Source of the DNA: Methanothrix sp.
GTDB taxonomy: Archaea; Halobacteriota; Methanosarcinia; Methanotrichales; Methanotrichaceae
NCBI GenBank assembly: GCA_018052825.1
Contig: JAGPMN010000006.1
Location: 1-52,068 of the forward strand
Direction of reading: 5' to 3'
Length of the DNA: 52,068 nt
This document shows, piece by piece, positions 3,069 through 49,367 of this stretch. Within the stretch, counting starts at the first letter, position 1; every line of letters begins with the position of its first letter. The notes under the pieces were generated by a model. That model was not told where the DNA came from, ran no database searches, and was given only the letters and a program-made list of their open reading frames with translations. A program made the translations under genes and the position numbers.

Positions 3069-3824
3069 ATGAAGATATTGATATGCGGCAAAGGCGGCAG
3101 CGGAAAGAGCACCATCTCTGCCCTCCTAGCAGAAGAGCTCGCATCAAAGGGACATAAAGTACTGGTAGTGGACACGGACGAGTCCAACTTCGGTCTGTAC
3201 AAGCATTTAGGCATGGAACAGCCTAAGGATTTCATGGAGTCTCTGGGCGGAAAAGCTGGACTCAGAGACAAGCTCATGGCATTCATAAGATCAGAAGGGA
3301 GCGAGATGCCGAATATGATGCCTGAGCAGTTTTGCATCGACGAGATTCCCCCGGAAGTGATCGTTGGTAAAAATGGCATAAAACTAGTGGCCATCGGCAA
3401 GATTCATGACTATGGCGAGGGGTGTGCCTGTCCCATGGGAGCACTTGCCAGGGAGTTTCTGGAGAAGCTGAAGACGAATAGGGAGTACATAATCGTGGAT
3501 ACGGATGCAGGAATAGAGCATTTCGGTAGAGGTGTGGAGGCAGGGTGCGATAAGATAGTAGTGGTCATAGATCCAAGCTATGAGTCTGTCCAGCTCTCTC
3601 TAAAGATAGCCCAGATGGCTGAGAAGATTGGGAAAGAAGTCTATTTCCTGCTCAACCGAATGGATGAGAACTCAAAAGAACTGGCTGAGATGGTGGACAG
3701 ACGAAGAGTGATAGGCATCCTTCCAAATGATAAGGATGTTTTCACTGCCTGTCTGAAAGGTGGCGCTGTGCCAAAGGTTAAGGAGATGGAGGGCATCGCC
3801 GACCGCCTCATAGGTCTAGGCTAG
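3069..3824 (+). CDS. cooC: CooC-type nickel-insertion ATPase
   Basis: A 251-residue MinD/ParA-type P-loop ATPase. The deviant Walker A motif GKGGSGKST lies at 7-15 and the switch DTDESN at 35-40. The CooC-specific metal site C119-A-C121 is present in GCACPMGA. Known CooC proteins bind Ni(II) at this CxC motif as dimers and use ATP to load nickel into the C-cluster of CO dehydrogenase. The gene follows the receptor gene with a GAGGTG ribosome site, so they are probably one transcript. This is the best evidence that the locus handles nickel. An acetate-using methanogen would need it for CODH/acetyl-CoA synthase. Confidence 0.88.
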   Translation: MKILICGKGGSGKSTISALLAEELASKGHKVLVVDTDESNFGLYKHLGMEQPKDFMESLGGKAGLRDKLMAFIRSEGSEMPNMMPEQFCIDEIPPEVIVGKNGIKLVAIGKIHDYGEGCACPMGALAREFLEKLKTNREYIIVDTDAGIEHFGRGVEAGCDKIVVVIDPSYESVQLSLKIAQMAEKIGKEVYFLLNRMDENSKELAEMVDRRRVIGILPNDKDVFTACLKGGAVPKVKEMEGIADRLIGLG

Positions 3825-3845
3825 GCCGGAGGAGGGAAAGAGAAA

Positions 3846-4442
3846 ATGAAACTTGAGCCCCGCATGAGAGAGCAGATCCTTCCACTCCCGGTGGTTCTTA
3901 TCTCTACAGTCTCCCAGGAGGGCATCAGAAACGCTGCTCCCTGGTCCAACTTTACTCCGATACTGCGGCCGCATGATGAAGTGCTTTTGGCCTCCTGGCT
4001 AAAACGTGATACTTTGGAGAACATTCGTCAGACTGGGGAGTTCGTGGTGAATGTGCCACCGAGGGGGATGGAGGATGCTGTTATGGTAACAGCCTGGAAT
4101 TATCCCCCGGAGGTGGATGAGTTTGAGATGGCAAATCTTCAACCACGCCCCTCATCCATTGTAAAGCCCCCTGGAATCGAGGGCTGCCTGGCCTGGGCGG
4201 AATGCGTTCTCGAGGAGGAAATAGCGCGAGAAAAGTTCGTCCTGGTCATAGGCAAGGTTGTGCATCTGGAAGCAGATAACCGATTCTTCAACGATTTGGG
4301 AGAGATGGACTTTGAGAAGGCCAAGCCCCTGGCAGTCATGCTCGGAGATGCAGGGATGCATTTCACTCATCCAGTCTCTTCAGGCAGATATGCAGAGTAC
4401 AGGGAGATGTTCCTCCCCTCGGCAAATCCGGGCGGGAGCTGA
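3846..4442 (+). CDS. Flavin reductase-like FMN-binding split-barrel protein
   Basis: A 198-residue protein with the flavin reductase-like split-barrel pattern. The N-terminal strand LPVVLISTVSQEGIRNAAPWSNF is followed by a WLKRDTLENI segment and a barrel region ending near SSGRYAEY. Family members bind FMN as dimers, and many serve as redox partners for metal or cofactor chemistry. A strong GGAGGAGGG site lies just before the ATG, and the gene begins 22 bases after cooC. Its job here is unknown. Reduction of a metal or chelate is a reasonable guess from context only. Confidence 0.75.
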   Translation: MKLEPRMREQILPLPVVLISTVSQEGIRNAAPWSNFTPILRPHDEVLLASWLKRDTLENIRQTGEFVVNVPPRGMEDAVMVTAWNYPPEVDEFEMANLQPRPSSIVKPPGIEGCLAWAECVLEEEIAREKFVLVIGKVVHLEADNRFFNDLGEMDFEKAKPLAVMLGDAGMHFTHPVSSGRYAEYREMFLPSANPGGS

Positions 4443-4468
4443 ATCGAGTTTGCTGCAAAAGGAGTTTT

Positions 4469-5320
4469 ATGATTTCTCCCTTAAAAGATATCGACTGGAA
4501 TGAGGTCTGGAAGGCCCAGATGCTGTTAAGCCTTGAATCCAGCCCAGGCAGAGACTGCGCCCGCATCTGGGAGAGCAGGGAGCGCGCTCTCGCGTTCTGG
4601 AACATGTGCAAGAATGAGAGGAGCCGCATCGACCAAACGGTCTGGGAGACGGAGGTCCCGTCGGCAACGGGGGTGCTGGATGCCGGAGCCGGGCAGGGCA
4701 CCCTGGCCATCCCCTTCGCCCAAAAGGCTGCTCACGTCACGGCGGTCGAGCCGGCTGAGGGAATGCGCAGCGTCATGAGGGAGAAGATGGCGGAGCACTC
4801 AGTCTCCAACATCGACATAGTGCCGAAGCGCTGGGAGGACGTGGATGTGGAGAGGGATCTGTCTGGGCCGTACGATGTGGTGATCGCATCCTTCTCCCTG
4901 GGAATGCAGGACATCCGGGCGGCCATTGAGAAGATGGTGCAGGCCTCCTCGCGGTACGTCTACCTTTATCACTTCGCCGGCCCATCATCCTGGGACAGGC
5001 AATGGCAGAGCCTCTGGCCGAAGCTGCATGGCAGGCCCTACCGGCCCGGACCCAAGAGCGACGTGCTCCACAATGTCCTCTACCAGATGGGCGTCTACCC
5101 AAACGTGAGTGTCTTTCGGCTGGAGCACAGCCGGCCCTACGGCTCACTAGATGAGGCCGTGGCAGATCTCGCCCCCCAGGCCCGTGCGGAGAGCGAGGAG
5201 CAGAAGGCGGTGCTGCGCGAGTATCTGAGGAGGGCTCTCTTAGAGGATGGCGGGATTCTGGTTATGCCGGGGTCGTCGGTGAGGGAGAATATGTGGTGGG
5301 AGAAAGAGGCAGTGAAGTAA
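4469..5320 (+). CDS. Class I SAM-dependent methyltransferase
   Basis: A 283-residue protein with a Rossmann methyltransferase core. Motif I is VLDAGAGQGTLAIPFA near residues 70-85, the acidic loop is VTAVEPAEGM and motif IV is DVVIASFSLGM. The C-terminal third is rich in Arg and Trp and may define the substrate. It sits 26 bases after the flavin reductase-like gene with an AAGGAG site, so it is likely cotranscribed with cooC. The substrate cannot be read from the sequence. In this setting it could modify a metal ligand, but an unrelated small molecule or tRNA target is equally open. Confidence 0.8.
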   Translation: MISPLKDIDWNEVWKAQMLLSLESSPGRDCARIWESRERALAFWNMCKNERSRIDQTVWETEVPSATGVLDAGAGQGTLAIPFAQKAAHVTAVEPAEGMRSVMREKMAEHSVSNIDIVPKRWEDVDVERDLSGPYDVVIASFSLGMQDIRAAIEKMVQASSRYVYLYHFAGPSSWDRQWQSLWPKLHGRPYRPGPKSDVLHNVLYQMGVYPNVSVFRLEHSRPYGSLDEAVADLAPQARAESEEQKAVLREYLRRALLEDGGILVMPGSSVRENMWWEKEAVK

Positions 5321-5476: not shown

Positions 5477-7032
5477 ACCGTCTTTCATCCTTCGGCTTTG
5501 CTGCTCTGGCCGGCCTGCTTTTGCTCCTGTTCGGCGGAGCACAGGCGGCGGATGAGACCGTGGGCATGATCACCATAGCCGACAGCACTGGCGACTGGGG
5601 CTACCCATCGCCCTATGGCCATTACTCCCGCGGCCCTGGCTATGTCAGGATGAGCCTGATATTCGACACCCTGGTCTGGAAGGACGAGGACGGGTTTGTG
5701 CCGGCTCTGGCTGAGAGCTGGGAGTACCTATCCGGTGAGAATGCCTACCTCTTCCACCTTCGCGATGGTGTGACCTGGAACGACGGCCAGCCCTTCACCG
5801 CCCGGGATGTGGCCTTCACATTCCAGTACATCCGGGACCATCCCTATGCCTGGGTTGACTCGAGCTCTGTGAAGGCCGTAGAGGCGGCCGATGATCAAAC
5901 TGTCAAGATCACTCTCGTAAGGGATTATGCCCCATTCCTGGACCAGGTGGCTGGCACTCTGCCCATTCTGCCTGAGCATGTCTACAAAGACGTGAGCGAT
6001 CCGGCCGGGTTCAAGGACCCCGAGGCTCTGACTGGCACCGGCCCCTTCGAGCTGGCCGACTACAACCAGGCCCAGGGGACATACCTCTTCAAGGCCAATG
6101 AGAACTACTACCAGGGCTCTCCCCGGGTCAAACAGATCAGGTTCGTGAAGGTCAGCCAGGAGATGTCCGCCGCCTCCCTGGAGAAGGGTGAGGTGGATGC
6201 GGCGGTGGTGCCGGGGGAGACCGTGAGCGATCTGGAGGGCAGGGGCTTCTCGGTTGTGAAGGGCTCTCATGACTGGCTGGCCAAGATCATGGTCAACCAC
6301 AAAAAGGAGCCTTTCTCCGATGTCAGGTTTAGAAGAGCCCTCTACTATGCCATAGACCGGCAGGACCTGGTGGATACTGCTCTGCGCGGCTACGGCCTGG
6401 CTGGCAGCCCCGGGCTGTATGCCCCGGACAGCGACTGGTACAATTCGGATCAGGAGCAGTACAGCCATGATATAGCTGAGGCAGGACGGCTGCTGGAAGA
6501 GATGGGATATGAGAGGAGCCAGGGCAGCCAGTACTACGGCAAGGACGGCCAGACTCTGGAGATCGAGCTTCTTGCCACCTCGGCCACTGAGAGGCAGGGG
6601 GAGCTGATCGCCAGCCAACTCAAGGAGGCAGGCCTGAACGTCGATCTGCGCATAGTCGATGCCAAAACCCTGGACAGCCTGGTCGAGAAGTGGCAGTTCG
6701 ACCTGGCCATGAGCGGCCACGGCGGCCTCGGCGGGGATCCGGCCATCCTCAACAAGGTTGTGATCGATCAAAAGAGCTTCAACAGCGCTCGCTACAATGA
6801 AAACAGGACTTTGAACGATGTTCTGGAGGCGCAGATTGAAGAGATGGATTCGGATGCAAGAGCGGATCTGGTGGACAGGGCCCAGGAGCTGATCGCCCTG
6901 GAGCTGCCAGCCCTGCCCATGTACTACACCGACAGCTTCTGGGCCTTCAATGACAAAGCCGACTACTACTATACATATGGAGGCGTGGGAAGCGGAGTGC
7001 CGATTCCTCTGAACAAGATGATCTTCGTTTGA
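5473..7032 (+). CDS. ABC transporter substrate-binding protein, NikA/DppA family (copy 2)
   Basis: A 519-residue extracytoplasmic receptor of the SBP_bac_5 family, paralogous to the protein at 1505-3055. They share the motifs DSTGDWG, PSPYGHYSRGPGY, FDTLVWKD, TGTGP and MVNHKKEPFSDVRFRRALYY. A signal peptide covers about residues 1-26 (LAGLLLLLFGGAQA). I chose the ATG at 5473 because AAGGAGAG lies 7 bases before it; an in-frame ATG at 5449 would add an unlikely charged extension. Two receptors for a single permease and ATPase set suggest two ligand forms or two affinities. Nickel or a nickel complex is inferred from the neighbours. Confidence 0.9.
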   Translation: MNRLSSFGFAALAGLLLLLFGGAQAADETVGMITIADSTGDWGYPSPYGHYSRGPGYVRMSLIFDTLVWKDEDGFVPALAESWEYLSGENAYLFHLRDGVTWNDGQPFTARDVAFTFQYIRDHPYAWVDSSSVKAVEAADDQTVKITLVRDYAPFLDQVAGTLPILPEHVYKDVSDPAGFKDPEALTGTGPFELADYNQAQGTYLFKANENYYQGSPRVKQIRFVKVSQEMSAASLEKGEVDAAVVPGETVSDLEGRGFSVVKGSHDWLAKIMVNHKKEPFSDVRFRRALYYAIDRQDLVDTALRGYGLAGSPGLYAPDSDWYNSDQEQYSHDIAEAGRLLEEMGYERSQGSQYYGKDGQTLEIELLATSATERQGELIASQLKEAGLNVDLRIVDAKTLDSLVEKWQFDLAMSGHGGLGGDPAILNKVVIDQKSFNSARYNENRTLNDVLEAQIEEMDSDARADLVDRAQELIALELPALPMYYTDSFWAFNDKADYYYTYGGVGSGVPIPLNKMIFV

Positions 7033-7227
7033 GTCTCTTTGGGGCGATCTCTCTGTGGTTCCGTCCAGAAAGCGCACGCACTGCCGACGGAAGCATAGAG
7101 AGAGTATTTATTACTTCATATTTTGTTATTCTATAATAGGTATTAATAGATATACATTTAGAAATTTTTAGTAATAATTTATCCTATTAGGAAAACTCTA
7201 TTAATACGAAGATCTATTTGATTTGCT
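7033..7227 (+). promoter_or_regulatory. AT-rich spacer, probable second promoter of the importer locus
   Basis: This gene-free stretch turns strongly AT-rich from about 7105. It contains several TATA-like runs (TTATTACTTC, GTAATAATTTATCC) and TATTAATA-type elements at 7141-7148 and 7199-7206. It resembles the regions at 180-346 and 5341-5415 in composition and in ATA/TTA-rich repeats. I infer an independent promoter for trmO and the membrane and ATPase genes. Confidence 0.35.
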
Positions 7228-16946: not shown

Positions 16947-17160
16947 GCCTCCTGTGAACTATACACCCCTGAAGGGCGGAGCTTCTCACCTCACTGCCAA
17001 GGCTTGCATCACAGGCTTGTGATGCAGAGGCTTTGGCTCTATGGGCGCAATGGGTTGTTCCAGCCGTGCGATAAGTATGTTCCTGGATGCATTGCAGTCT
17101 GGATCACATTGGATTATAAAAGTCAAAAAGATAATCTTCTCCGAGCATCTATTAGATCCT

Positions 17161-17865
17161 ATGAGATTCATCCATGCCATTACAATCGTTATTCTTGCAT
17201 TGATGCCATTTGCACAATGTCAGCATACTGCGGAAGAATGGTTTAACAAAGGGAATGATTTCTATGGCCAGGGCAAATATGACGAGGCCATCAATGCTTT
17301 TAACGAATCGATAAAGATCAATCCAAACCTCATGGGGACCTGGAACAATAAAGGCGCTGCCCTAGCTCGCCAGTACAGGTACGATGAGGCTATCAAAGCA
17401 CTGGATGAAGCCATCAGAATCGAGCCGAACTATGCTGGCGCATGGAATAATAAAGGCGCCGTTCTTACTAGCCAGGGTAATTACAATAAGGCCATCAAGT
17501 CTTTCGATGAGGCCATCAGGCTTAATACGAACTATTCCAAGGCCTGGAACAATAAAGGCATTGTTCTTGGCAAACAAGGTCTCTACGACGAGGCCATAAA
17601 AGCTTTAGATGAATCCATCTGGCTAAATCCTAACTATGCCGAATTTTGGAGCAACAAAGGCTTTTTCCTCGGCAAACAAGGCAGTTATGACGGTGCAATC
17701 ACGGCTTTAGACCAGGCGATCAAACTCAATCCCAGATATGTTAATGCCTGGAATAACAAAGGCCTCGTATTACAATCGCTCGGTCGAAGCATTGAAGCCA
17801 ATGATGCATTCTACAGAGCCAGAGAGCTCTGGAATGCGACTGCTCTCCGCGCTGAAGGGGAATAG
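17161..17865 (+). CDS. Exported TPR-repeat protein
   Basis: A 234-residue protein with a signal peptide (MRFIHAITIVILALMPFAQC) and then about six tandem 34-residue TPR units. Each contains a variant of AWNNKGxxLxxxGxYxxAIxxxDxAIxLxPNY. A cysteine at the predicted cleavage site allows a lipoprotein reading. I start at 17161 because the frame upstream encodes no sensible signal sequence. It is more regular than the TPR proteins at 40793-48608 and not a close copy of them. TPR solenoids bind peptides or partner proteins; none is evident here. Confidence 0.8.
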   Translation: MRFIHAITIVILALMPFAQCQHTAEEWFNKGNDFYGQGKYDEAINAFNESIKINPNLMGTWNNKGAALARQYRYDEAIKALDEAIRIEPNYAGAWNNKGAVLTSQGNYNKAIKSFDEAIRLNTNYSKAWNNKGIVLGKQGLYDEAIKALDESIWLNPNYAEFWSNKGFFLGKQGSYDGAITALDQAIKLNPRYVNAWNNKGLVLQSLGRSIEANDAFYRARELWNATALRAEGE

Positions 17866-40415: not shown

Positions 40416-40792
40416 ATGCTATTCGCCCCTCTGTTTATGCTATTGCAGCTCCAACTATTTAGAATGCACCGGGGATTCATGCGGGACGGCGGCTGCGTAT
40501 AGTGGGATCGTCAGCCGCAAGTTTTATATTCGTTAATTGTCGTATTCGACTATTGACGTAAATAATCTGCTGGGTTAAGTCCCCGGCCTGGAAGTGAGAG
40601 AGGATGCTGGATGTCGATCGTGGAGGGAGCTGCTTTGTCGGAATCGTCGCGGGATTCGAAGATCGCCGAAAAGACGTTTGTCCGGTTTGAGAGAGCTCAT
40701 CTCTTCGCCAAAAATAAGCGGAGACTGGCCAGTGTGAGGGGGTACGAGGAATGATCCCCCCTCATTTTTCAAAGCTTAATGGAGGTATGTAA
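40416..40792 (+). other. Spacer before the TPR array with a relic 3' end
   Basis: No intact gene is seen. TTTTATATTCG at 40520-40530 is a likely TATA box, which would give the array a leader of about 240 bases. An inverted repeat (GCGGCTG 40489-40495, CAGCCGC 40512-40518) precedes it. From about 40739 to 40799 the DNA closely matches 44459-44519, including a frame end (TAC GAG GAA TGA) where the matching copy has the stop of a TPR gene. The spacer thus ends in what looks like the tail of a lost TPR gene. Confidence 0.45.
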
Positions 40793-41806
40793 ATGAAATT
40801 CAGATTTGCTATCGCTCTGTTAGCGATAGCTATGCTCTGCGCCTCTGCTGTGGCGCAGGAAGAGAGTGCAAAGGATTGGTATCAAAAGGGCCAGGAGCTG
40901 AGGATGAACGGATCCCTGGATGAGGCGTTAACAGCACTGGACAAGGCCATTACGCTTGACCAAGAAAATGCAGATGCTTGGCAGTATAAAGCTCTGACTC
41001 TAAGGGACCTTGAGAGGTTCAATGAGTCCCTGGAGGCTTTCCAGAGGGCCCTGGAGCTGGACCCTCAGGACGACCAGGCCAGGACTGAGATGGCTGGGCT
41101 GCTCATGGTCATGGGAAGGAGCTCTGAGGCAGCGTCCGTGCTGGCTGCGTCTCCTGACCGGGTCCCGCAGAGCCCTAAGGAAAGGCTGGACCAGTCCATA
41201 GTGTGGCAGCTCAGGGGAAAGGTCCTGGTGGAGAAGGGCAGCTACAATGAGGCCCTCGAAGCCTACGACCGGGCCATAGAGCTAGGAGACGGCCAGCCTG
41301 TGGGCGAAGCCACGGCGTGGATGGGCAAGGGCAGCCTTCTTATGAGGCTGGAGCGCTATGAGGACGCCCTCCTGGCCTTTGACAGCGCTCTGCAATCAGA
41401 CTACCCTGACGAAGATAGTGAAGGCAAGCCGAGGCAAACCCTGGTAGGGAGCGAGGCCTGGCTTGGCAGGGGAGAGGCCCTGGAGGCTCTTGGCAGGCAC
41501 GGTGAGGCAGTCGAGGCCTACAACAGGTCTGTTCAATCCCTGGAGATCGACCTGGCCATTACCCCAGATGCTCCCAAGCTCTGGAAGGAGAAGGCAGACG
41601 TCCTGGAGAGCCTGGGCAGACACGATGAGGCTGTGCCGGCCTACGAGAGGGCGATCGAGCTGTTCAGAAGCGAGATCGCTACCCAAACCGGAGCCTCTAA
41701 CGGCTGGAGATACTGGTGGATGGGCGACGCTCTCCAGGCTATGGGCCGTACAGATGAGGCGAATGCTGCCTTTGCAAAGGCTAAGGAACTGGGATATCAG
41801 GAATGA
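40793..41806 (+). CDS. Exported TPR protein 1 of the array
   Basis: A 337-residue exported protein. The signal peptide (IALLAIAMLCASAVAQ) is followed by AKDWYQKGQEL and then about seven TPR units with patterns such as DEALTALDKAITLDQENADAW. The signal peptide and first mature residues are almost identical at the DNA level to those of the protein at 44514, which points to recent duplication. GGAGG lies before the ATG. It ends LGYQE, the shared family C-terminus. No anchor is visible, so it may be secreted or bind another envelope protein through its TPR groove. Confidence 0.82.
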   Translation: MKFRFAIALLAIAMLCASAVAQEESAKDWYQKGQELRMNGSLDEALTALDKAITLDQENADAWQYKALTLRDLERFNESLEAFQRALELDPQDDQARTEMAGLLMVMGRSSEAASVLAASPDRVPQSPKERLDQSIVWQLRGKVLVEKGSYNEALEAYDRAIELGDGQPVGEATAWMGKGSLLMRLERYEDALLAFDSALQSDYPDEDSEGKPRQTLVGSEAWLGRGEALEALGRHGEAVEAYNRSVQSLEIDLAITPDAPKLWKEKADVLESLGRHDEAVPAYERAIELFRSEIATQTGASNGWRYWWMGDALQAMGRTDEANAAFAKAKELGYQE

Positions 41807-41844
41807 CCCCAGCATCTTTTTGTGAGGTTATAGGAGGCTTGTAA

Positions 41845-44475
41845 ATGAAAGCAGAATTTACTGTCGCATTATTGGCAGCAGCCATGCTCTGTGTCTCGGC
41901 TATGGCGCAGGAAAACACAGCCGAGGACTGGTTCAGCAAGGGCCAGGAGCTGCAAAGAAATGACTCTCATGAAGAGGCTCTTCAGGCCTACGAGAAGGCC
42001 ATACAGATCGACCCTGAGTCGGCCAGGGCCTGGATGGGCAAAGGCAATGCCCTTCTGAGCCTGAAAAGATACAATGAATCAATGGAGGCCTATGAAAGGG
42101 CAGTCGAGATTTTGAACGGCAGCCAAAAAGATGATCCCGAAGACGCCGAAGCCTGGTGGCTGAAGGCCGAGAGCCTGGACAGCATGGGCAGGAGCGATGC
42201 GGCCCTTGAGGCCTATGATAGGGTCATAGCTCTGAACTCATCAAAGGCCCTGGGCGCCTGGATAAGGAAGTCGGATATCTTCGCCTCTCTGGGCAGATAT
42301 AACGAGTCAGTGGAAGCCTTTGATGGCGCTCTCAACCTGCTGCCGACCCAGGATAAGCAGAGCATCATGAGCCTGTGGTGGGCGAGGGGCATTGACATTT
42401 ACCATAATGCCTGGATTGCAGACGGCCAGATTCTCAGGACGGCCTCAGCATGGCGCAACCAGTCGACAGGTGCCATCGAGAACATCATGCTGGTCAACTC
42501 GGACTTCACAGCCGCCTGGCAGAGGCCGACCATGGGCAAGGCAGTTTCAGCCGATGGAAAGCCTCTGGGCAGGCACGATGAGGCGCTGCAGTCCTCGGGC
42601 GCCAACTGGGCGCAGTATGGCTTCCCCGGGCCTAAAGAGGCTGCGCAGGAGAACACCGCAGATAGCTGGATGAAAAAGGGCTATGAACTGATGGGAAATA
42701 GATCTTATGAAGAGGCTATAAAGGCTATGCAAAAGGCTGTTGAGCTGGACCCAGAGAACGCAACCCTCTGGGATGCCAAAGCACAAAGCCTCGCCTTTGC
42801 GGTCTCCTTTTCCGGCAATCTCAGTGAGTACAACGAATCCCTCAATGCTGAAGATAAAGCCATCGAGCTGGATCCCGATAATTCAACATTATTGGTTCAT
42901 AAGGGCTTTCTCCTCGCCAATCTAGCTGATATCAGCGGCTATGGAAACGAGAGCTTGTATGAAGACGCCACAAAGGAGTTCGATAAGGCTATTCTACTGA
43001 ACCCACAGGATAAAGAGGCCTGGAACTGGAAGGGCATGGTTCTCGATACTCGACTAAATAGAACAAGTGAGGCCCTTGCAGCCTATGACAAAGTCATCGA
43101 GATCGGTGGTACAAATGCAAGCGATAAGGTCCTGCTGGCAAATGCCTGGAGTGCCAAGGGCGGCGCTCTGGCTAAGCTCGGAAGGGACGATGAGTCCACA
43201 GCGGCTTTTGATAATGCCATCGAGCTGAACCCGCTAAATGCTGCCTCTATCTGGTATATGAGAGCCGCTACTATCAATGCCTCTGGAAAGTATGATGAGG
43301 CGGTCAAGGCATATGATAAGGTCATCGCTCTATCCCAGGATAATGTCACCACTGCCTTGGCCTACGGGGGCAGAGGTGCAGCGCTCATCAAGCTAGGCAA
43401 GTACAACGAGGCTGTCACTGCCTACGATAAGGCCATCCAGCTATTTCCATTGGAGCAAATGGGCGGCCTTGCCTGGTATAAGAAAGGAGTTGCTCTGAAG
43501 GCGCTGGGCAAACAATCTGAGGCGGATGCGGCCTTTGCTAAGGCCAAGGAGCTGGGGTACGAAGTCCCGAACGATAGCGAAGACAACTCATCTTCAACTC
43601 CTGTTAAAATGCTGGCCATCACCAGCATCAAGGCTACGGGCGAGGATGAGTTCGTAGAGATCGCCAACAGCCGAACAGTCGCTCAAAGCCTCAATGGCTG
43701 GACCCTGAATATCAGCGATGGCAGTAATCAGTCCATAGCTCTGCCTGATTTCACGCTTGGTCCTGATGAGAGGATTAATGTCCACCTCGGCAGGGGTGAG
43801 AGCAGTAAGACAGACATCTACCTAAACAGTGCCATTGCCCTCAACGATACTGCAGGCAACATCACCCTGAAAGATGAAACCGAAAAAGATGTGGCCTCCT
43901 TCGGGTACAGAGTTGAGCCCAATGGCTCTCTCACAGGCATAATGACTGCAGAGGGCGAGTTCAGCTATCCTCAGTCGGACTCGAACGAGGTGAAGATGGC
44001 GGTGAGAGAAGCTGGAAGCGGCCCTTACGTCGCCGAGAGGACTGAATACGAGCTGGATGCAGCATACAACTGGGTTGATAAGGGCAATGTTCTGGCCGAA
44101 CAAGGCAATTACGAAGAGGCTATCAAGGCTCTCGATAACGCCACTGAGCTGAATCCTCAGGACAAACACATCTGGATGTCCAAAGGCCTGATCTTCGCAG
44201 CTCATCTGGGCAGGTACAACGAGTCCATCGAGGCTTATGAGTGGGCAATCCAGATCGATCTCAAAGATGCTGATGCCTGGTTTGGCAAAGGCGCGGCGCT
44301 GAACAAGACAGGCAGGTATGAGGAAGCCATTCAGGCGCTTAACAGGGCAACAGATCTAAATCCAAAGCTTGTTGCTGCCTGGAAGGTAACGGGTGACGCT
44401 CTAAAAGCGCTTGGCCGCAACTCTGAGGCAGATGCGGCCTACGATAAGGCCAAGGAGCTGGGGTATCAGGGATGA
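41845..44475 (+). CDS. Exported TPR protein 2, with a lamin-tail domain and internal fusion
   Basis: An 876-residue exported protein, the largest of the array. A signal peptide is followed by a first TPR block (about 25-175), then a non-TPR segment (about 180-265; AWIADGQILR, SDFTAAWQ, GRHDEALQSS). At about 270 the sequence AAQENTADSWMKKGYEL repeats the mature N-terminus of its own family, followed by a long second TPR block. A lamin-tail-type beta domain follows near 585-690 (GEDEFVEIANSRTVAQSLNG, ALNDTAGNITLKDE), and a final TPR block ends LGYQG. It reads as a fusion of two family members. Function is unknown; surface scaffolding is a guess. Confidence 0.8.
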   Translation: MKAEFTVALLAAAMLCVSAMAQENTAEDWFSKGQELQRNDSHEEALQAYEKAIQIDPESARAWMGKGNALLSLKRYNESMEAYERAVEILNGSQKDDPEDAEAWWLKAESLDSMGRSDAALEAYDRVIALNSSKALGAWIRKSDIFASLGRYNESVEAFDGALNLLPTQDKQSIMSLWWARGIDIYHNAWIADGQILRTASAWRNQSTGAIENIMLVNSDFTAAWQRPTMGKAVSADGKPLGRHDEALQSSGANWAQYGFPGPKEAAQENTADSWMKKGYELMGNRSYEEAIKAMQKAVELDPENATLWDAKAQSLAFAVSFSGNLSEYNESLNAEDKAIELDPDNSTLLVHKGFLLANLADISGYGNESLYEDATKEFDKAILLNPQDKEAWNWKGMVLDTRLNRTSEALAAYDKVIEIGGTNASDKVLLANAWSAKGGALAKLGRDDESTAAFDNAIELNPLNAASIWYMRAATINASGKYDEAVKAYDKVIALSQDNVTTALAYGGRGAALIKLGKYNEAVTAYDKAIQLFPLEQMGGLAWYKKGVALKALGKQSEADAAFAKAKELGYEVPNDSEDNSSSTPVKMLAITSIKATGEDEFVEIANSRTVAQSLNGWTLNISDGSNQSIALPDFTLGPDERINVHLGRGESSKTDIYLNSAIALNDTAGNITLKDETEKDVASFGYRVEPNGSLTGIMTAEGEFSYPQSDSNEVKMAVREAGSGPYVAERTEYELDAAYNWVDKGNVLAEQGNYEEAIKALDNATELNPQDKHIWMSKGLIFAAHLGRYNESIEAYEWAIQIDLKDADAWFGKGAALNKTGRYEEAIQALNRATDLNPKLVAAWKVTGDALKALGRNSEADAAYDKAKELGYQG

Positions 44476-44513
44476 TCCCTACTCATTTTTCCGAGCTAAA
44501 TGGAGGTCTGTAA

Positions 44514-45833
44514 ATGAAAGCGATTTTTACTATCGCTCTGTTAGCGATATCTATGCTCTGCGCCTCTGCTGTGGCGCAGGAGGAGAGTGCAGAGGATTGG
44601 TCCAAGAGAGGCGAGGATGAGCTGTTCAACAACAGCTCCTTCGAAGGCGCTTTGCAGGCTTTTAACAAGGCCATCGATCTGGATCCTACGAACGCTACCC
44701 TCTGGTTGCACAAAGCACAGGTGCACGAGTTCATGGGCGACAGAAACCTGGCAGTCGGAGCCTATGAAGAAGCCCTGAACATCACAAATGAAAATCTGCA
44801 AAAAAATCCAGATGATGCAGACGCCTGGTGGACGATGGGGGTGATCCTCGATTCATTGGGCCGACAGGTCGAGGCTAAAGAGTCGAGGGAGAGAGCGGCT
44901 CAGGTTTATAACAAAACGCTGGCCGGCAATCCGGAGGATGGGGAGTGCTGGTTCAAATTGGCCGAGGTGCTTCTCAGCCTGAACAGGGAAGACGAGGCCA
45001 TAGATGCCTATGAACGATCCATCGAGACGAACAGCTCAAAGGCCGGCGTAGCCGCCAGCACCGTCAGCAACCTCTTTGCGAACGCTGGGAGGTACGACGA
45101 GGCCCTGAAGGCCTCAGAGAGGGCCCTCAATCTGACAAGCCCGGACGATATCCGGAACAAAAAGCTTGCGCTGTGGACAAAAGGCAGCATTCTGACGATG
45201 GCAGAAAGGCCGGAGGAGGCGCTGCAGGCATTCGATGAGGCCTTGAGGCTCGATCCAGAGGACAAGATGACATTGATGTCGAGGGCAGATGCCCTCAGTG
45301 ACCTGCACAGGTACAACGAGTCTATAGAGGCCTATCAAAAGGTCATAGAGCAGGCCGCTAATGATAGCAGTAACTGGATTACCAACGCCTTGATCGGCAT
45401 GGGCGACGCCCTGAACGCTACAGGCAGAAGGGACGAGGCACTGGATGCCTACAGATCCCTCCTTGAGGTCAAAGAGATGGAGATTGAGAAGAATCCCGAA
45501 GACTCCATGGCCTGGGAGAGCAAGGGCAGGGCTCTTCTCAAGATGGGCCAGTATGAGGAGGCCATAGAGGCCTTCAACAGATCCATAGAGGTATCTTCAG
45601 GCCCGTATGCCCTATCATCAGCGTCTGGCGACGCTTGGGTTGGGAGGGGAGATGCCATGATGGCGCTGGGCAGATATGAAGATGCCCTGGAGGCCTACAG
45701 GCAGGCAATTGAGGTCTTCCCTCTAAATGGAGATGCATGGCACGGCAAGGGGGAGGCCTTACATGCCCTGGGCAAGAGGATCGAAGGCGACTGGGCATTC
45801 CAGATGGCGAAAAAGCTGGGGTACAGGAAGTGA
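44514..45833 (+). CDS. Exported TPR protein 3 of the array
   Basis: A 439-residue exported protein with the signal peptide IALLAISMLCASAVAQ and mature start ESAEDWSKRGEDE. About ten TPR units follow (NSSFEGALQAFNKAIDLDPT, EEALQAFDEALRLDPEDKMT) and fill the protein to the LGYRK end. It lies 38 bases after gene 2 with TGGAGGTCTGTAA before the ATG, a leader nearly the same as that of gene 1. NxS/T sites are frequent, which fits a glycosylated exterior. It has no lamin-tail domain. Confidence 0.82.
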   Translation: MKAIFTIALLAISMLCASAVAQEESAEDWSKRGEDELFNNSSFEGALQAFNKAIDLDPTNATLWLHKAQVHEFMGDRNLAVGAYEEALNITNENLQKNPDDADAWWTMGVILDSLGRQVEAKESRERAAQVYNKTLAGNPEDGECWFKLAEVLLSLNREDEAIDAYERSIETNSSKAGVAASTVSNLFANAGRYDEALKASERALNLTSPDDIRNKKLALWTKGSILTMAERPEEALQAFDEALRLDPEDKMTLMSRADALSDLHRYNESIEAYQKVIEQAANDSSNWITNALIGMGDALNATGRRDEALDAYRSLLEVKEMEIEKNPEDSMAWESKGRALLKMGQYEEAIEAFNRSIEVSSGPYALSSASGDAWVGRGDAMMALGRYEDALEAYRQAIEVFPLNGDAWHGKGEALHALGKRIEGDWAFQMAKKLGYRK

Positions 45834-45888
45834 TACCCTATTTTTCCTTGAAAATATCGCAAGTCACATTGCATGAAGAGGTGATCGT

Positions 45889-47322
45889 ATGAAAATGGTA
45901 AGAAGAAAGGCAGGGGCCGGGCTTGCTCTGGTTCTTTTAGCTCTAGCAGCTCTATGCTCTTATGCCGCAGCACAGGAAAATACGACAGACTACTGGACGG
46001 AGAGGGCCGAAGAGCTTGCTAACAACAGCTCCTTCGAAGAGGCCATCTCAGCCCTGGATGAGGCTCTGAAGGTGGATCCCGAAAACGAGACGGTCTTGAT
46101 CCGCAAGGCTTCGTATCTCTGTGTAACCGGCAGGATGAATGAGTCCGCTGAGACCTATGAGAGGGCACTCGCCATTTTGGAGGAAGAGCTGAAGAATGAC
46201 CCAATTGATGCCGGGGCCTGGGAGAAGAAGGCCAGAGTCCTGAACAGTTTGAACAGGAAAGAGGATTCCAACCAGGCATATGAAAAGGCACTGGAGATCT
46301 ACGACCAGCGAATAGAAAAGGATCCAAAAGATGCCGATGCCTGGATGGGCAGAGCCAACATGCTGCTGAACCTCGGACGGTGGGATGAGGCTCAGGAGGC
46401 CTATGATAAGGTCACCGAACTCAAACCAGAGGATTACGCAGTCTGGTGGCGAAAGGCAGAGGTCGTCAGCAGCATAGGAGATATCAATGAGTCAGCGGAG
46501 GCATACGATCGGGCCATCAGCCTGATACCAGCCAACGATACCGAAGAGATTGCACTGGCCTACGCTGCCAAGAGCGAGGATCTGGCAGTTGCAGAGAGAT
46601 GGGATGATGCCCTGGAGGCTGTTAATAAGTCCTTAGAACTGAATCCCAAGAGCGGCGTGTGGTGGCATTTCAAGGCATTTGTCTTAACAGAGCTGGATCG
46701 GAAGGAGGAAGCTCTCGCAGCCTTTGACGAGGCCCTCAGGCAGAACCCAGAGGACTTCGATAGCACGGGATGGAAAGCCAGCCTGCTCATGGAGATGAAA
46801 AGGTACAACGAATCCATCGAAGCCTATGATAAGACACTTGGGCTGATACCAGAGAATAACACCGAAAAGCTGGCGCAACTCTGGCTCTCTAAAGGAAAGG
46901 CTCTGAACAAGAGTGGCAAACAGGAGGAAGCGAAAGAGGCCTTCCAAAGATCGCTGGAGCTTTACGATAAGGCTATTTTAGAGGATCCCGGCGACGTCAA
47001 CCTGCTGCATATGAAAGGCCTGGCGCTCTACAATCTGGGCAGGTATGAAGACTCCCTGAGGGTTTATGGTCAAATCCTCGAGACGTCTCCCAGAATCGAG
47101 CCCTACCTAACCGATAGCGCTGCACTGGAGGGCAAAGGCGATGCTCTGCGGGCCTTGGGCAGAAATAAGGAAGCACTGGAGGCTTACAATGAGGTCATAG
47201 AGCTGAGCCCCAATTCCAGCACAGCCTGGCACGGCAGGGGAGAGGCACAGAGGGCGCTGGGAGAGTTCTACAATGCCAGCATCTCGCTTTATGTAGCACA
47301 GAAGCAGGGGTATGAGGAGTGA
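45889..47322 (+). CDS. Exported TPR protein 4 of the array
   Basis: A 477-residue exported protein. Its signal peptide (AGLALVLLALAALCSYAAAQ) differs from its neighbours, but the mature start ENTTDYWTERAEEL and the C-terminal QKQGYEE follow the family pattern. About eleven TPR units follow, many with acidic loops (DPKDADAWMGRANMLLNLGR). An AAGAGGTGATCGT leader precedes the ATG. It lacks the middle and lamin-tail domains. It is the most diverged of the tandem copies, so it is probably an older duplicate. Confidence 0.82.
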   Translation: MKMVRRKAGAGLALVLLALAALCSYAAAQENTTDYWTERAEELANNSSFEEAISALDEALKVDPENETVLIRKASYLCVTGRMNESAETYERALAILEEELKNDPIDAGAWEKKARVLNSLNRKEDSNQAYEKALEIYDQRIEKDPKDADAWMGRANMLLNLGRWDEAQEAYDKVTELKPEDYAVWWRKAEVVSSIGDINESAEAYDRAISLIPANDTEEIALAYAAKSEDLAVAERWDDALEAVNKSLELNPKSGVWWHFKAFVLTELDRKEEALAAFDEALRQNPEDFDSTGWKASLLMEMKRYNESIEAYDKTLGLIPENNTEKLAQLWLSKGKALNKSGKQEEAKEAFQRSLELYDKAILEDPGDVNLLHMKGLALYNLGRYEDSLRVYGQILETSPRIEPYLTDSAALEGKGDALRALGRNKEALEAYNEVIELSPNSSTAWHGRGEAQRALGEFYNASISLYVAQKQGYEE

Positions 47323-47360
47323 CAATATCTAAATTTTTTATATGTTAAGGATGCCTGTTA

Positions 47361-48608
47361 ATGAAAGCAGAATATGCTGCCGCATTGTTAGCGGCATCTA
47401 TGCTGTGCATCTCTGCAGCTGCACAGGAAAATATGACAGAGAGCTGGTTTAAAAAAGGCCAGGAGCTGTATGAAAATGGGTCCTATCAGGAGGCACTTGC
47501 TGCCTGCGATGAGGCCCTGAAGATGGACCCCCAGAACGCCTCTGCCTGGCACTACAGGGCACTGGCCCTTGCAGGAATGGGGCACGGAGTGGAGGCTAAC
47601 CAGTCGCTTCAGAAGGCCATGGATCTGCTCGACCGCAGGCTCCGGGAGAGCCCGGAGGACGCCGAGGCCTTGTGGCTGAGGGCAGAGGGGCTGGACATAC
47701 TGGGAAGAAGCGACGAGGCGGTGGAGGCCTACGACCGGCTGGCAGAGCTGAACTCATCCCCTGCTCTGGGCGCCTGGATAAGGCAGTCCGACATCCTGGC
47801 GGCCCTGGGCAGGTATAATCAATCAGGAGAGGCCTTTGAGAGGGCCATGTCACAGCTTCCTGCCAGCAAATCCACATCGCATATCGAGCTGCAGCGGCAC
47901 ATCGACAACGCCACCATCTTCACAAAAGCCTGGATCATCGACGGCCAGCTTCACAGGGTCTGCATCGGACTGTATAACCTCTCCTCAAAATCCTTCGACG
48001 AGATCGAGCAGATCAGCTCAGATTTCGTATCGAGCTTCCAGCTCAAGGTAGAAGCCGCCGATCCGGGAAGGCATGGCAGCTCATTGATGGGGTCGAGCAT
48101 CAACTGGGATATCTACTCCTTCAACACTCCCAAGGCAACGGGCCCCGCTGAGCCTGCAATCGTGACAATAGCCGGCATCAATACGACTGGCGACGAGTTC
48201 ATTGAAGTAAAGAACGGCCTCCAGGAGGGCATCGATCTCCATAACTGGAGATTTGAGATTGAAGGATCGAATGTATCTCTGCCCGAGCACTCCCTTCCGC
48301 CTGGAAAAGCTGTCAGAATCCATCTGGGAAGCGGCAAAGGAGATGAGACAGACATATTCCTCGATAGCGATCTGGAGCTGAACGATACTGCCGGAAGCAT
48401 CTCCCTGAGAGATGAATCAGGCGAGAAAGTAGCCTCTCTCGACTACAGGACTAAGCTGGATGGCTCGATCGCCTACCAGGTCACCCACTACTCAGGCCTT
48501 GAGTATCCAGGGCCGGATGATCAGGGGAGGATGGCGAAGAGGGCCGCGGGCGTTGGTCCTTTTGTTGCTGAGAGGGGAGAGATTGCGCCGGAGCCGGTCC
48601 ATGGCTAA
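47361..48608 (+). CDS. Exported TPR protein 5, with a lamin-tail domain
   Basis: A 415-residue exported protein. The signal peptide (AALLAASMLCISAAAQ) and mature start ENMTESWFKKGQEL are followed by about four TPR units. A non-TPR segment near 175-262 (TKAWIIDGQLHR, SDFVSSFQ, GRHGSSLMGSSINW) aligns with the same segment of protein 2. From about 266 comes a lamin-tail-type beta domain (TTGDEFIEVKNGLQEGIDLHN, LELNDTAGSISLRDES). It ends without further TPR. This simpler order, TPR then unknown then lamin-tail, looks ancestral to protein 2. Confidence 0.8.
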   Translation: MKAEYAAALLAASMLCISAAAQENMTESWFKKGQELYENGSYQEALAACDEALKMDPQNASAWHYRALALAGMGHGVEANQSLQKAMDLLDRRLRESPEDAEALWLRAEGLDILGRSDEAVEAYDRLAELNSSPALGAWIRQSDILAALGRYNQSGEAFERAMSQLPASKSTSHIELQRHIDNATIFTKAWIIDGQLHRVCIGLYNLSSKSFDEIEQISSDFVSSFQLKVEAADPGRHGSSLMGSSINWDIYSFNTPKATGPAEPAIVTIAGINTTGDEFIEVKNGLQEGIDLHNWRFEIEGSNVSLPEHSLPPGKAVRIHLGSGKGDETDIFLDSDLELNDTAGSISLRDESGEKVASLDYRTKLDGSIAYQVTHYSGLEYPGPDDQGRMAKRAAGVGPFVAERGEIAPEPVHG

Positions 48609-48746
48609 ATGGAGATTGTTGATCTGCAAGAGGGAGAGACGCCCGCCTGCCGGATCGAAAGGGGCCTGCAGCTCTACAAGGGCGAATCTTATCGGAGAGC
48701 AGCCCCGGCTTTTTGCATTTTTTATTATGAGGCAGCCACAGATTGA
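48609..48746 (+). CDS. Possible small ORF, TPR-like remnant
   Basis: A 45-codon frame starts right after the stop of gene 5. Its middle (RGLQLYKGESYRRA) resembles the opening of a TPR unit of this family, such as KGQELYENGSYQEA, but the rest does not and there is no signal peptide. It crosses the T-tract terminator. I read it as a decayed fragment of a sixth TPR gene rather than a working gene. Confidence 0.25.
   Translation: MEIVDLQEGETPACRIERGLQLYKGESYRRAAPAFCIFYYEAATD
48706..48724 (+). terminator. T-tract terminator of the TPR array
   Basis: After the last TPR gene a GC-rich stretch (CCCCGGC) leads into five T at 48710-48714 and six T at 48718-48723. This is the archaeal pattern for intrinsic termination and would separate the array from the next gene, although some read-through is possible. 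Confidence 0.5.
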
Positions 48747-48767: not shown

Positions 48768-49367
48768 TTGGCAAGAGGGACGGTCTGGCTGTTTGCTGCT
48801 GTAATGCTTCTCTGCAGCTCAGCTGCCGCAGCAGATCTGTCCGGCTACTGGATGATAGATTACAAAGTCCTTGGGGGAAGCGCAGAGGAGAGGACGATTT
48901 CATTTGCAGAGGGCGGTATGCTCCAGATCATAGAGGATGAATCCACTCTGCACGGCAGCTCCTCTCTGGGCAGCCGGGGCGATGGCTTTCTGATAGGAGC
49001 GGCCACTGCCCTCCAGTTCGATGCTGCAATCACATTTCGCTCGGATCCGCTCCTTTTTCTCAGGCTGAATGGAGAGCGATCCGGCGATGCTCTTTCTGGC
49101 AAGTTCACTGCTTCGTCTTCGGACGGCAGATTCTGGTGGGGAGACTTCCTGGCATTGCCGCCATCGCCGAATAGGGCGGCTGATGGGAGGAGATATTCCG
49201 AGCCCGACGCAGGCCTGTCTCCGCAGCCCCTCAGATTCGTGGACCCGGAGGCCTTCTGGAGCAACCAGACGGGCAAAGAGCACAGGGAGATATTCACAAT
49301 CACATATGACCCAAACACCATCCTGATGTGCAGGAATGTGCCAATGATCTGGCAATGGTGGATGTGA
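48768..49367 (+). CDS. Hypothetical exported protein
   Basis: A 199-residue protein of unknown family. It starts with TTG at 48768, supported by AAGGAGGTG at 48752-48760. A signal peptide (VWLFAAVMLLCSSAAAA) is followed by a strand-rich region of about 120 residues (SGYWMIDYKVLGGSAEERTI, DAAITFRSDPLLFLRLNGE) that could be a lipocalin- or avidin-like barrel. The C-terminal part has several Trp and Pro residues. It lies behind the TPR array on the same strand and may belong to the same envelope system. Confidence 0.6.
   Translation: MARGTVWLFAAVMLLCSSAAAADLSGYWMIDYKVLGGSAEERTISFAEGGMLQIIEDESTLHGSSSLGSRGDGFLIGAATALQFDAAITFRSDPLLFLRLNGERSGDALSGKFTASSSDGRFWWGDFLALPPSPNRAADGRRYSEPDAGLSPQPLRFVDPEAFWSNQTGKEHREIFTITYDPNTILMCRNVPMIWQWWM

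Follow-up and report, generated by a model that had tools for sequence, protein, structure and literature searches.

A tandem array of predicted exported TPR proteins with shared leader DNA in Methanothrix

PrsT (TIGR02917), PilW/Tgl and MamA (NF040959) are TPR solenoids that serve as protein-binding scaffolds outside the cytoplasm or on membranes, and in this they resemble the role proposed here for the array. In mycoplasma families of the Vlp/Vsa type, the genes are clustered, and their upstream and signal-peptide DNA is conserved although the bodies behind it differ. To our knowledge, little has been established about the Methanothrix envelope beyond its sheath and S-layer. Among the methanogens that use acetate, Methanothrix is a major one (PMC10470525), and archaeal sheath (SH) proteins have an amyloid-like core made of two beta-sheets (PMC11576556). 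A literature search on archaeal TPR arrays or LTD-TPR fusions returned nothing relevant, and TPR genes are not mentioned in a transcriptome paper on Methanothrix soehngenii. The array lies in a stretch of 52,068 nt, analysed as a whole and called the window below. The named relatives are Methanosaeta/Methanothrix MAGs, which agrees with the attribution to Methanothrix.

Layout of the array and its spacer-plus-leader repeat

The array consists of five consecutive genes on the forward (+) strand, defined by their ORFs and Pfam matches and, for g4 and g5, by orthologs as well. These are g1 (40793..41806, 337 aa), g2 (41845..44475, 876 aa), g3 (44514..45833, 439 aa), g4 (45889..47322, 477 aa) and g5 (47361..48608, 415 aa), and the codon numbers given in the first-pass annotation match these co-directional ORFs exactly. 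The spacer range that it gave, 38 to 55 bases, also holds: 38 nt separate g1 from g2 (41807..41844) and g2 from g3 (44476..44513), 55 nt lie between g3 and g4, and a diverged 38-nt spacer precedes g5 (47323..47360). Because of this short spacing, g1 to g5 are likely carried on one transcript. Many TPR repeats are present in all five, which are TPR proteins as first read, with TPR_1, TPR_2 and TPR_16 far above the Pfam cut-offs. Genes g1, g3 and g4 are predicted to encode exported TPR proteins, g2 an exported TPR-X-TPR-LTD-TPR mosaic, and g5 an exported TPR-X-LTD protein. Another exported-looking TPR gene, with strongly periodic repeats, is found outside the array at 17041-17865 of the window.

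What is left of a sixth array gene (40655..40754, +) precedes g1. In it a TPR piece from the interior of the gene, EKTFVRFERAHLFAK, runs straight into a C-terminal end (RGYEE-stop), and directly 3' of this end comes a 38-nt spacer (40755..40792, +) of the same type as those inside the array. The remnant matches EKAFVWFERAHLFAE in proteins of other genomes (G009, G008, G022 and G029), and 54 nt of it are 79.6% identical to an array gene of G009; the same region gave no match among plasmids. The array is flanked by an FKBP gene on one side and a Thi4 gene on the other, and the surrounding genes are housekeeping genes with no recombinase among them.

The 38-nt spacer and the signal peptide together form a DNA-level repeat that is about 80-87% identical within and between genomes, and the bodies behind shared leaders have 34-39% amino-acid identity. 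Over 159 nt of spacer plus leader, g3 and g1 have 85.5% identity, which extends to synonymous positions, for bodies at 34%. The same leader type precedes unrelated bodies in other genomes (G016, G017, G029, G032 and G013), so that a DNA-conserved leader stands before unrelated bodies, as in leader-sharing variable surface gene families. A search of the entire window genome (1.8 Mb) for the motif GGAGGTNTGTAAATGAAA with up to 2 mismatches finds it at g1, g2 and g3 and nowhere else; in G016, 6 of its 7 occurrences are inside the array region. Gene g4 has a different leader as well as the longer spacer; a rule of common leader cassettes therefore does not cover every member. RNA hairpins in the 38-nt spacer are weak and not common to the spacers. 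A second, longer leader type is seen in other genomes, and a NosD-type beta-helix protein encoded within the G013 array (L058:6806-9397) has the same extended leader DNA as array TPR genes.

Export signals, added domains and the cap gene

The signal peptides first noted in all five proteins are recovered by sequence reading and a simple hydropathy scan, as an N-terminal hydrophobic segment and a Sec-type A-x-A site at the junction with Q-E. The common mature start described in the first-pass annotation (Q-E-N/E-...-W-x-K-G-x-E-L) is exact in g1, g2 and g5, and deviates in g3 (W-S-K-R-G-E-D-E-L) and g4 (W-T-E-R-A-E-E-L). Similarly, the C-terminal L-G-Y holds for g1, g2 and g3; it is Q-G-Y in g4 and absent from g5. 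The predicted export agrees with an enrichment in N-x-S/T sequons, which number 64 in g1 to g5 against 11 for the reversed motif. In 89 TPR proteins of related arrays there are 767 sequons and 176 reversed motifs, for a shuffle expectation of 195. In the window genome, TPR proteins taken as cytosolic because they lack a hydrophobic N-terminus contain 1 sequon and 1 reversed motif in 993 residues, whereas sequons are again enriched in its other exported TPR proteins. The enrichment thus tracks export and not the TPR motif. Judged from these sequons, the array proteins are probably N-glycosylated. No lipid or PEP-CTERM anchor is seen in them.

Two kinds of module are added to the TPR repeats. 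A Lamin Tail Domain (LTD, PF00932, gathering cut-off 34.3 bits) is found in g2 (43612..43908, +; 35.1 bits) and in g5 (48162..48446, +; 35.6 bits), the latter with a fold match to lamin A/C. The X module is a region of about 94 aa common to g2 (42340..42639, +; E 4.8e-44) and g5 (47856..48137, +; E 1.2e-48), and its strong matches within the class are confined to Methanotrichaceae. A core of about 57 of its residues has weak matches in other families of the class (G217, G141, G236, G107 and G087) and may represent a small domain of wider occurrence that has no name yet. In the AlphaFold model of g5, the X part is of low confidence. The mosaic nature of g2 is apparent along its length: the first 264 residues are similar to g5, the second TPR body (42640..43563, +) starts with AAQENTADSW like a mature N-terminus, and residues 267-573 match, at 70% identity, the mature part of an exported protein that is a gene product of its own in G017. 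Elsewhere in the window genome (L122:1129-1893, contig C69), another exported protein has an LTD but no TPR.

Downstream of g5 is a conserved cap gene, g6 (48768..49367, +), whose TTG start opens a small exported beta-rich protein of 199 aa ending in IWQWWM. Eleven of the 14 strict members of its family come immediately after an array TPR gene, and among 238 genomes of the class the family is found only in Methanotrichaceae. The g6 protein has no Pfam match and no sequence match among solved structures (PDB), and its AlphaFold model (pLDDT 44) is too poor to use. A terminator-like hairpin with a T run lies between g5 and g6 (window 48693-48725), and g6 may therefore have its own transcript. 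The LTD in g2 and g5, the X module, g6, the near-copy leaders and the upstream remnant are all additions to the first reading.

Distribution, turnover and possible exchange in the Methanotrichaceae

When the array is surveyed across Methanothrix genomes, as first suggested, related arrays appear across the Methanotrichaceae. TPR matches to g5 (E <= 1e-15) are present in 38 of 50 family genomes, and in 7 to 8 of the 50 a g5 ortholog extends over the full length or nearly so. Arrays comprise about 4-15 TPR genes; the largest is that of G016, which we take to be M. soehngenii GP6, at roughly 2.94-2.99 Mb of a 3,008,626-bp chromosome. In the well-sampled genus g9 the array and the strict g6 are absent from 6 of 6 genomes, one of which (G046; one contig, 1.9 Mb) is presumably the sheathed M. 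thermoacetophila PT. Neighbours vary by genome, with Thi4 and LysRS elsewhere far off or on other contigs, and viral contigs gave no relative. Full-length orthologs of g4 are 57-72% identical and those of g5 61-67%. Counterparts of g1 and g3 are weaker (46-56%), and g1, g3 and the mosaic g2 turn over.

Other proteins are interspersed in the G016 array. Three membrane proteins, each combining an outside domain and a membrane span with a DUF7343/MarR domain (L051:1328-2347, 3281-4543 and 5839-7038), alternate with array TPR genes and are possible membrane-bound regulators. Also inside this array is an exported protein (L051:9810-12176) that has a long stalk of Pro/Ser/Thr repeats as well as cysteine repeats of the Dictyostelium type (PF00526).

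Pairwise dN/dS between closely related array genes is 0.12-0.39, and these genes are therefore maintained by purifying selection. Between the same genomes, several array genes have a dS below that of core genes (0.73 against 1.28 for LysRS between G013 and G016; 0.48 for g5 against 1.46 between G008 and G048; 0.01-0.06 against 0.49-0.66 between G013 and G010), which fits lateral exchange, although codon bias can also lower dS and contigs may have been misbinned in the G010 cases. G010 (L062:4604-6064) and G013 (L058:710-2170), whose core genes differ at dS 0.5-0.66, encode a 486-aa array protein with 100% identity between the two, through either a recent exchange or a misbinned contig. The possibility of a hypervariable concave TPR face was rejected: its positions change at 0.26, against 0.24 for other surface positions, and are neither unusually conserved nor unusually variable. 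The concave face thus gives no pointer to a ligand, and variation seems to come from the exchange of bodies and not from point changes at binding surfaces.

A proposed envelope scaffold and its relation to known systems

A model can be proposed, to which we give an even chance, in which a family-specific, movable array of Methanotrichaceae supplies the envelope with soluble, exported and probably N-glycosylated scaffold proteins that are modular and exchangeable. Each protein would be a rod of TPR repeats, joined in some cases to an Ig-like LTD and an X module. These rods would most likely lie between the membrane and the S-layer or sheath, as scaffolds on which other proteins dock. Recombination at the common leader and spacer and at the similar 3' ends would change the array, adding, deleting, fusing or exchanging whole bodies while the export and translation signals are kept. 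With less assurance, g4, g5 and g6 may be viewed as a constant core and the remaining genes as the exchangeable part. The protein-binding surface system of the first reading is a reasonable inference from the TPR and Ig-like LTD domains. That the array is a dedicated device for envelope diversification is a tentative and rather doubtful extension; TPR bodies would then be swapped as cassettes behind the common spacer-plus-leader, within genomes and between Methanotrichaceae lineages, to give each lineage its own docking rods around the g4-g5-g6 core.

A less probable account needs no special system: exported TPR paralogues would have expanded in this lineage by ordinary tandem duplication and drift, with the likeness of their leaders due to constraint on signal peptides and ribosome sites or to recent duplication. 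TPR genes are indeed numerous in the window genome (92 PF13432 matches), and distant TPR similarity is common to all members. However, a non-coding 38-nt spacer and synonymous leader positions are kept across species where the bodies are not, the leader motif is specific to the array, and the array-type leader is also present on the unrelated NosD beta-helix gene. It is unlikely, though conceivable from the lateral exchange and turnover of g1-g3 type genes and from the mucin-like and beta-helix proteins within some arrays, that the array is a recognition repertoire, in which outward-facing TPR rods change per lineage to bind partner cells, viruses or episymbionts and the exchange of bodies is selected. 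The ordinary rate of change at the concave face and dN/dS values well below 1 argue against it, as does the absence of any visible anchor to hold the proteins on the outside.

The two remaining explanations are less probable still. TPR proteins often assist assembly and these are exported proteins of sheathed, filamentous archaea, yet a role as sheath building parts or assembly chaperones is quite improbable because genus g9, which seems to include a well-studied sheathed species, lacks the array and the strict g6 in all its genomes, and because the sheath core has a different fold. The TPR alpha-solenoid is unlike the amyloid-like beta core (PMC11576556), and the sheath formation first suggested is left unsupported. 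Even more remote is the idea that the TPR proteins bind a ligand outside and hand it over to one-component, membrane-bound regulators of the DUF7343/MarR type. It draws on the alternation of such proteins with three array TPR genes in G016, but neither the window nor any other array examined has this arrangement, and the sole DUF7343 gene of the window genome, on a different contig, has no TPR gene next to it.

If the scaffold model is true, the Methanothrix envelope contains many exported, probably glycosylated docking proteins that have so far escaped notice, and their set changes as whole bodies are moved behind a shared leader. With the gene lists, orthologs and leader motif at hand, tests of localisation, partners and exchange are straightforward.

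Compared with PrsT, PilW/Tgl and MamA, the array has many differing copies, common leaders, and LTD and X modules, with no lipid or PEP-CTERM anchor seen. Its proteins are below the NCBIfam cut-offs of these families (best scores 99.0 of 312.2 for PrsT, 160.8 of 200 for MamA and 84.2 of 154 for PilW). A library of anti-phage defence proteins gave only weak, generic TPR-type matches. SH proteins are, like those of the array, exported multi-copy surface proteins of the same organisms; compared by fold, the array proteins are distinct from them, with a TPR solenoid and an Ig-like domain (Pfam and g5 model). Unlike the Vlp/Vsa-type families, the array has intact, co-directional genes, and no adjacent recombinase, inverted copies, silent cassettes or phase-variable tract is seen; as in those families, it is clustered and has conserved upstream and signal-peptide DNA before differing bodies. 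Finally, g2 and g5 have the Lamin Tail Domain (PF00932) in common with other LTD proteins, and what sets them apart is that, in an exported archaeal protein, this domain is fused to TPR and X.
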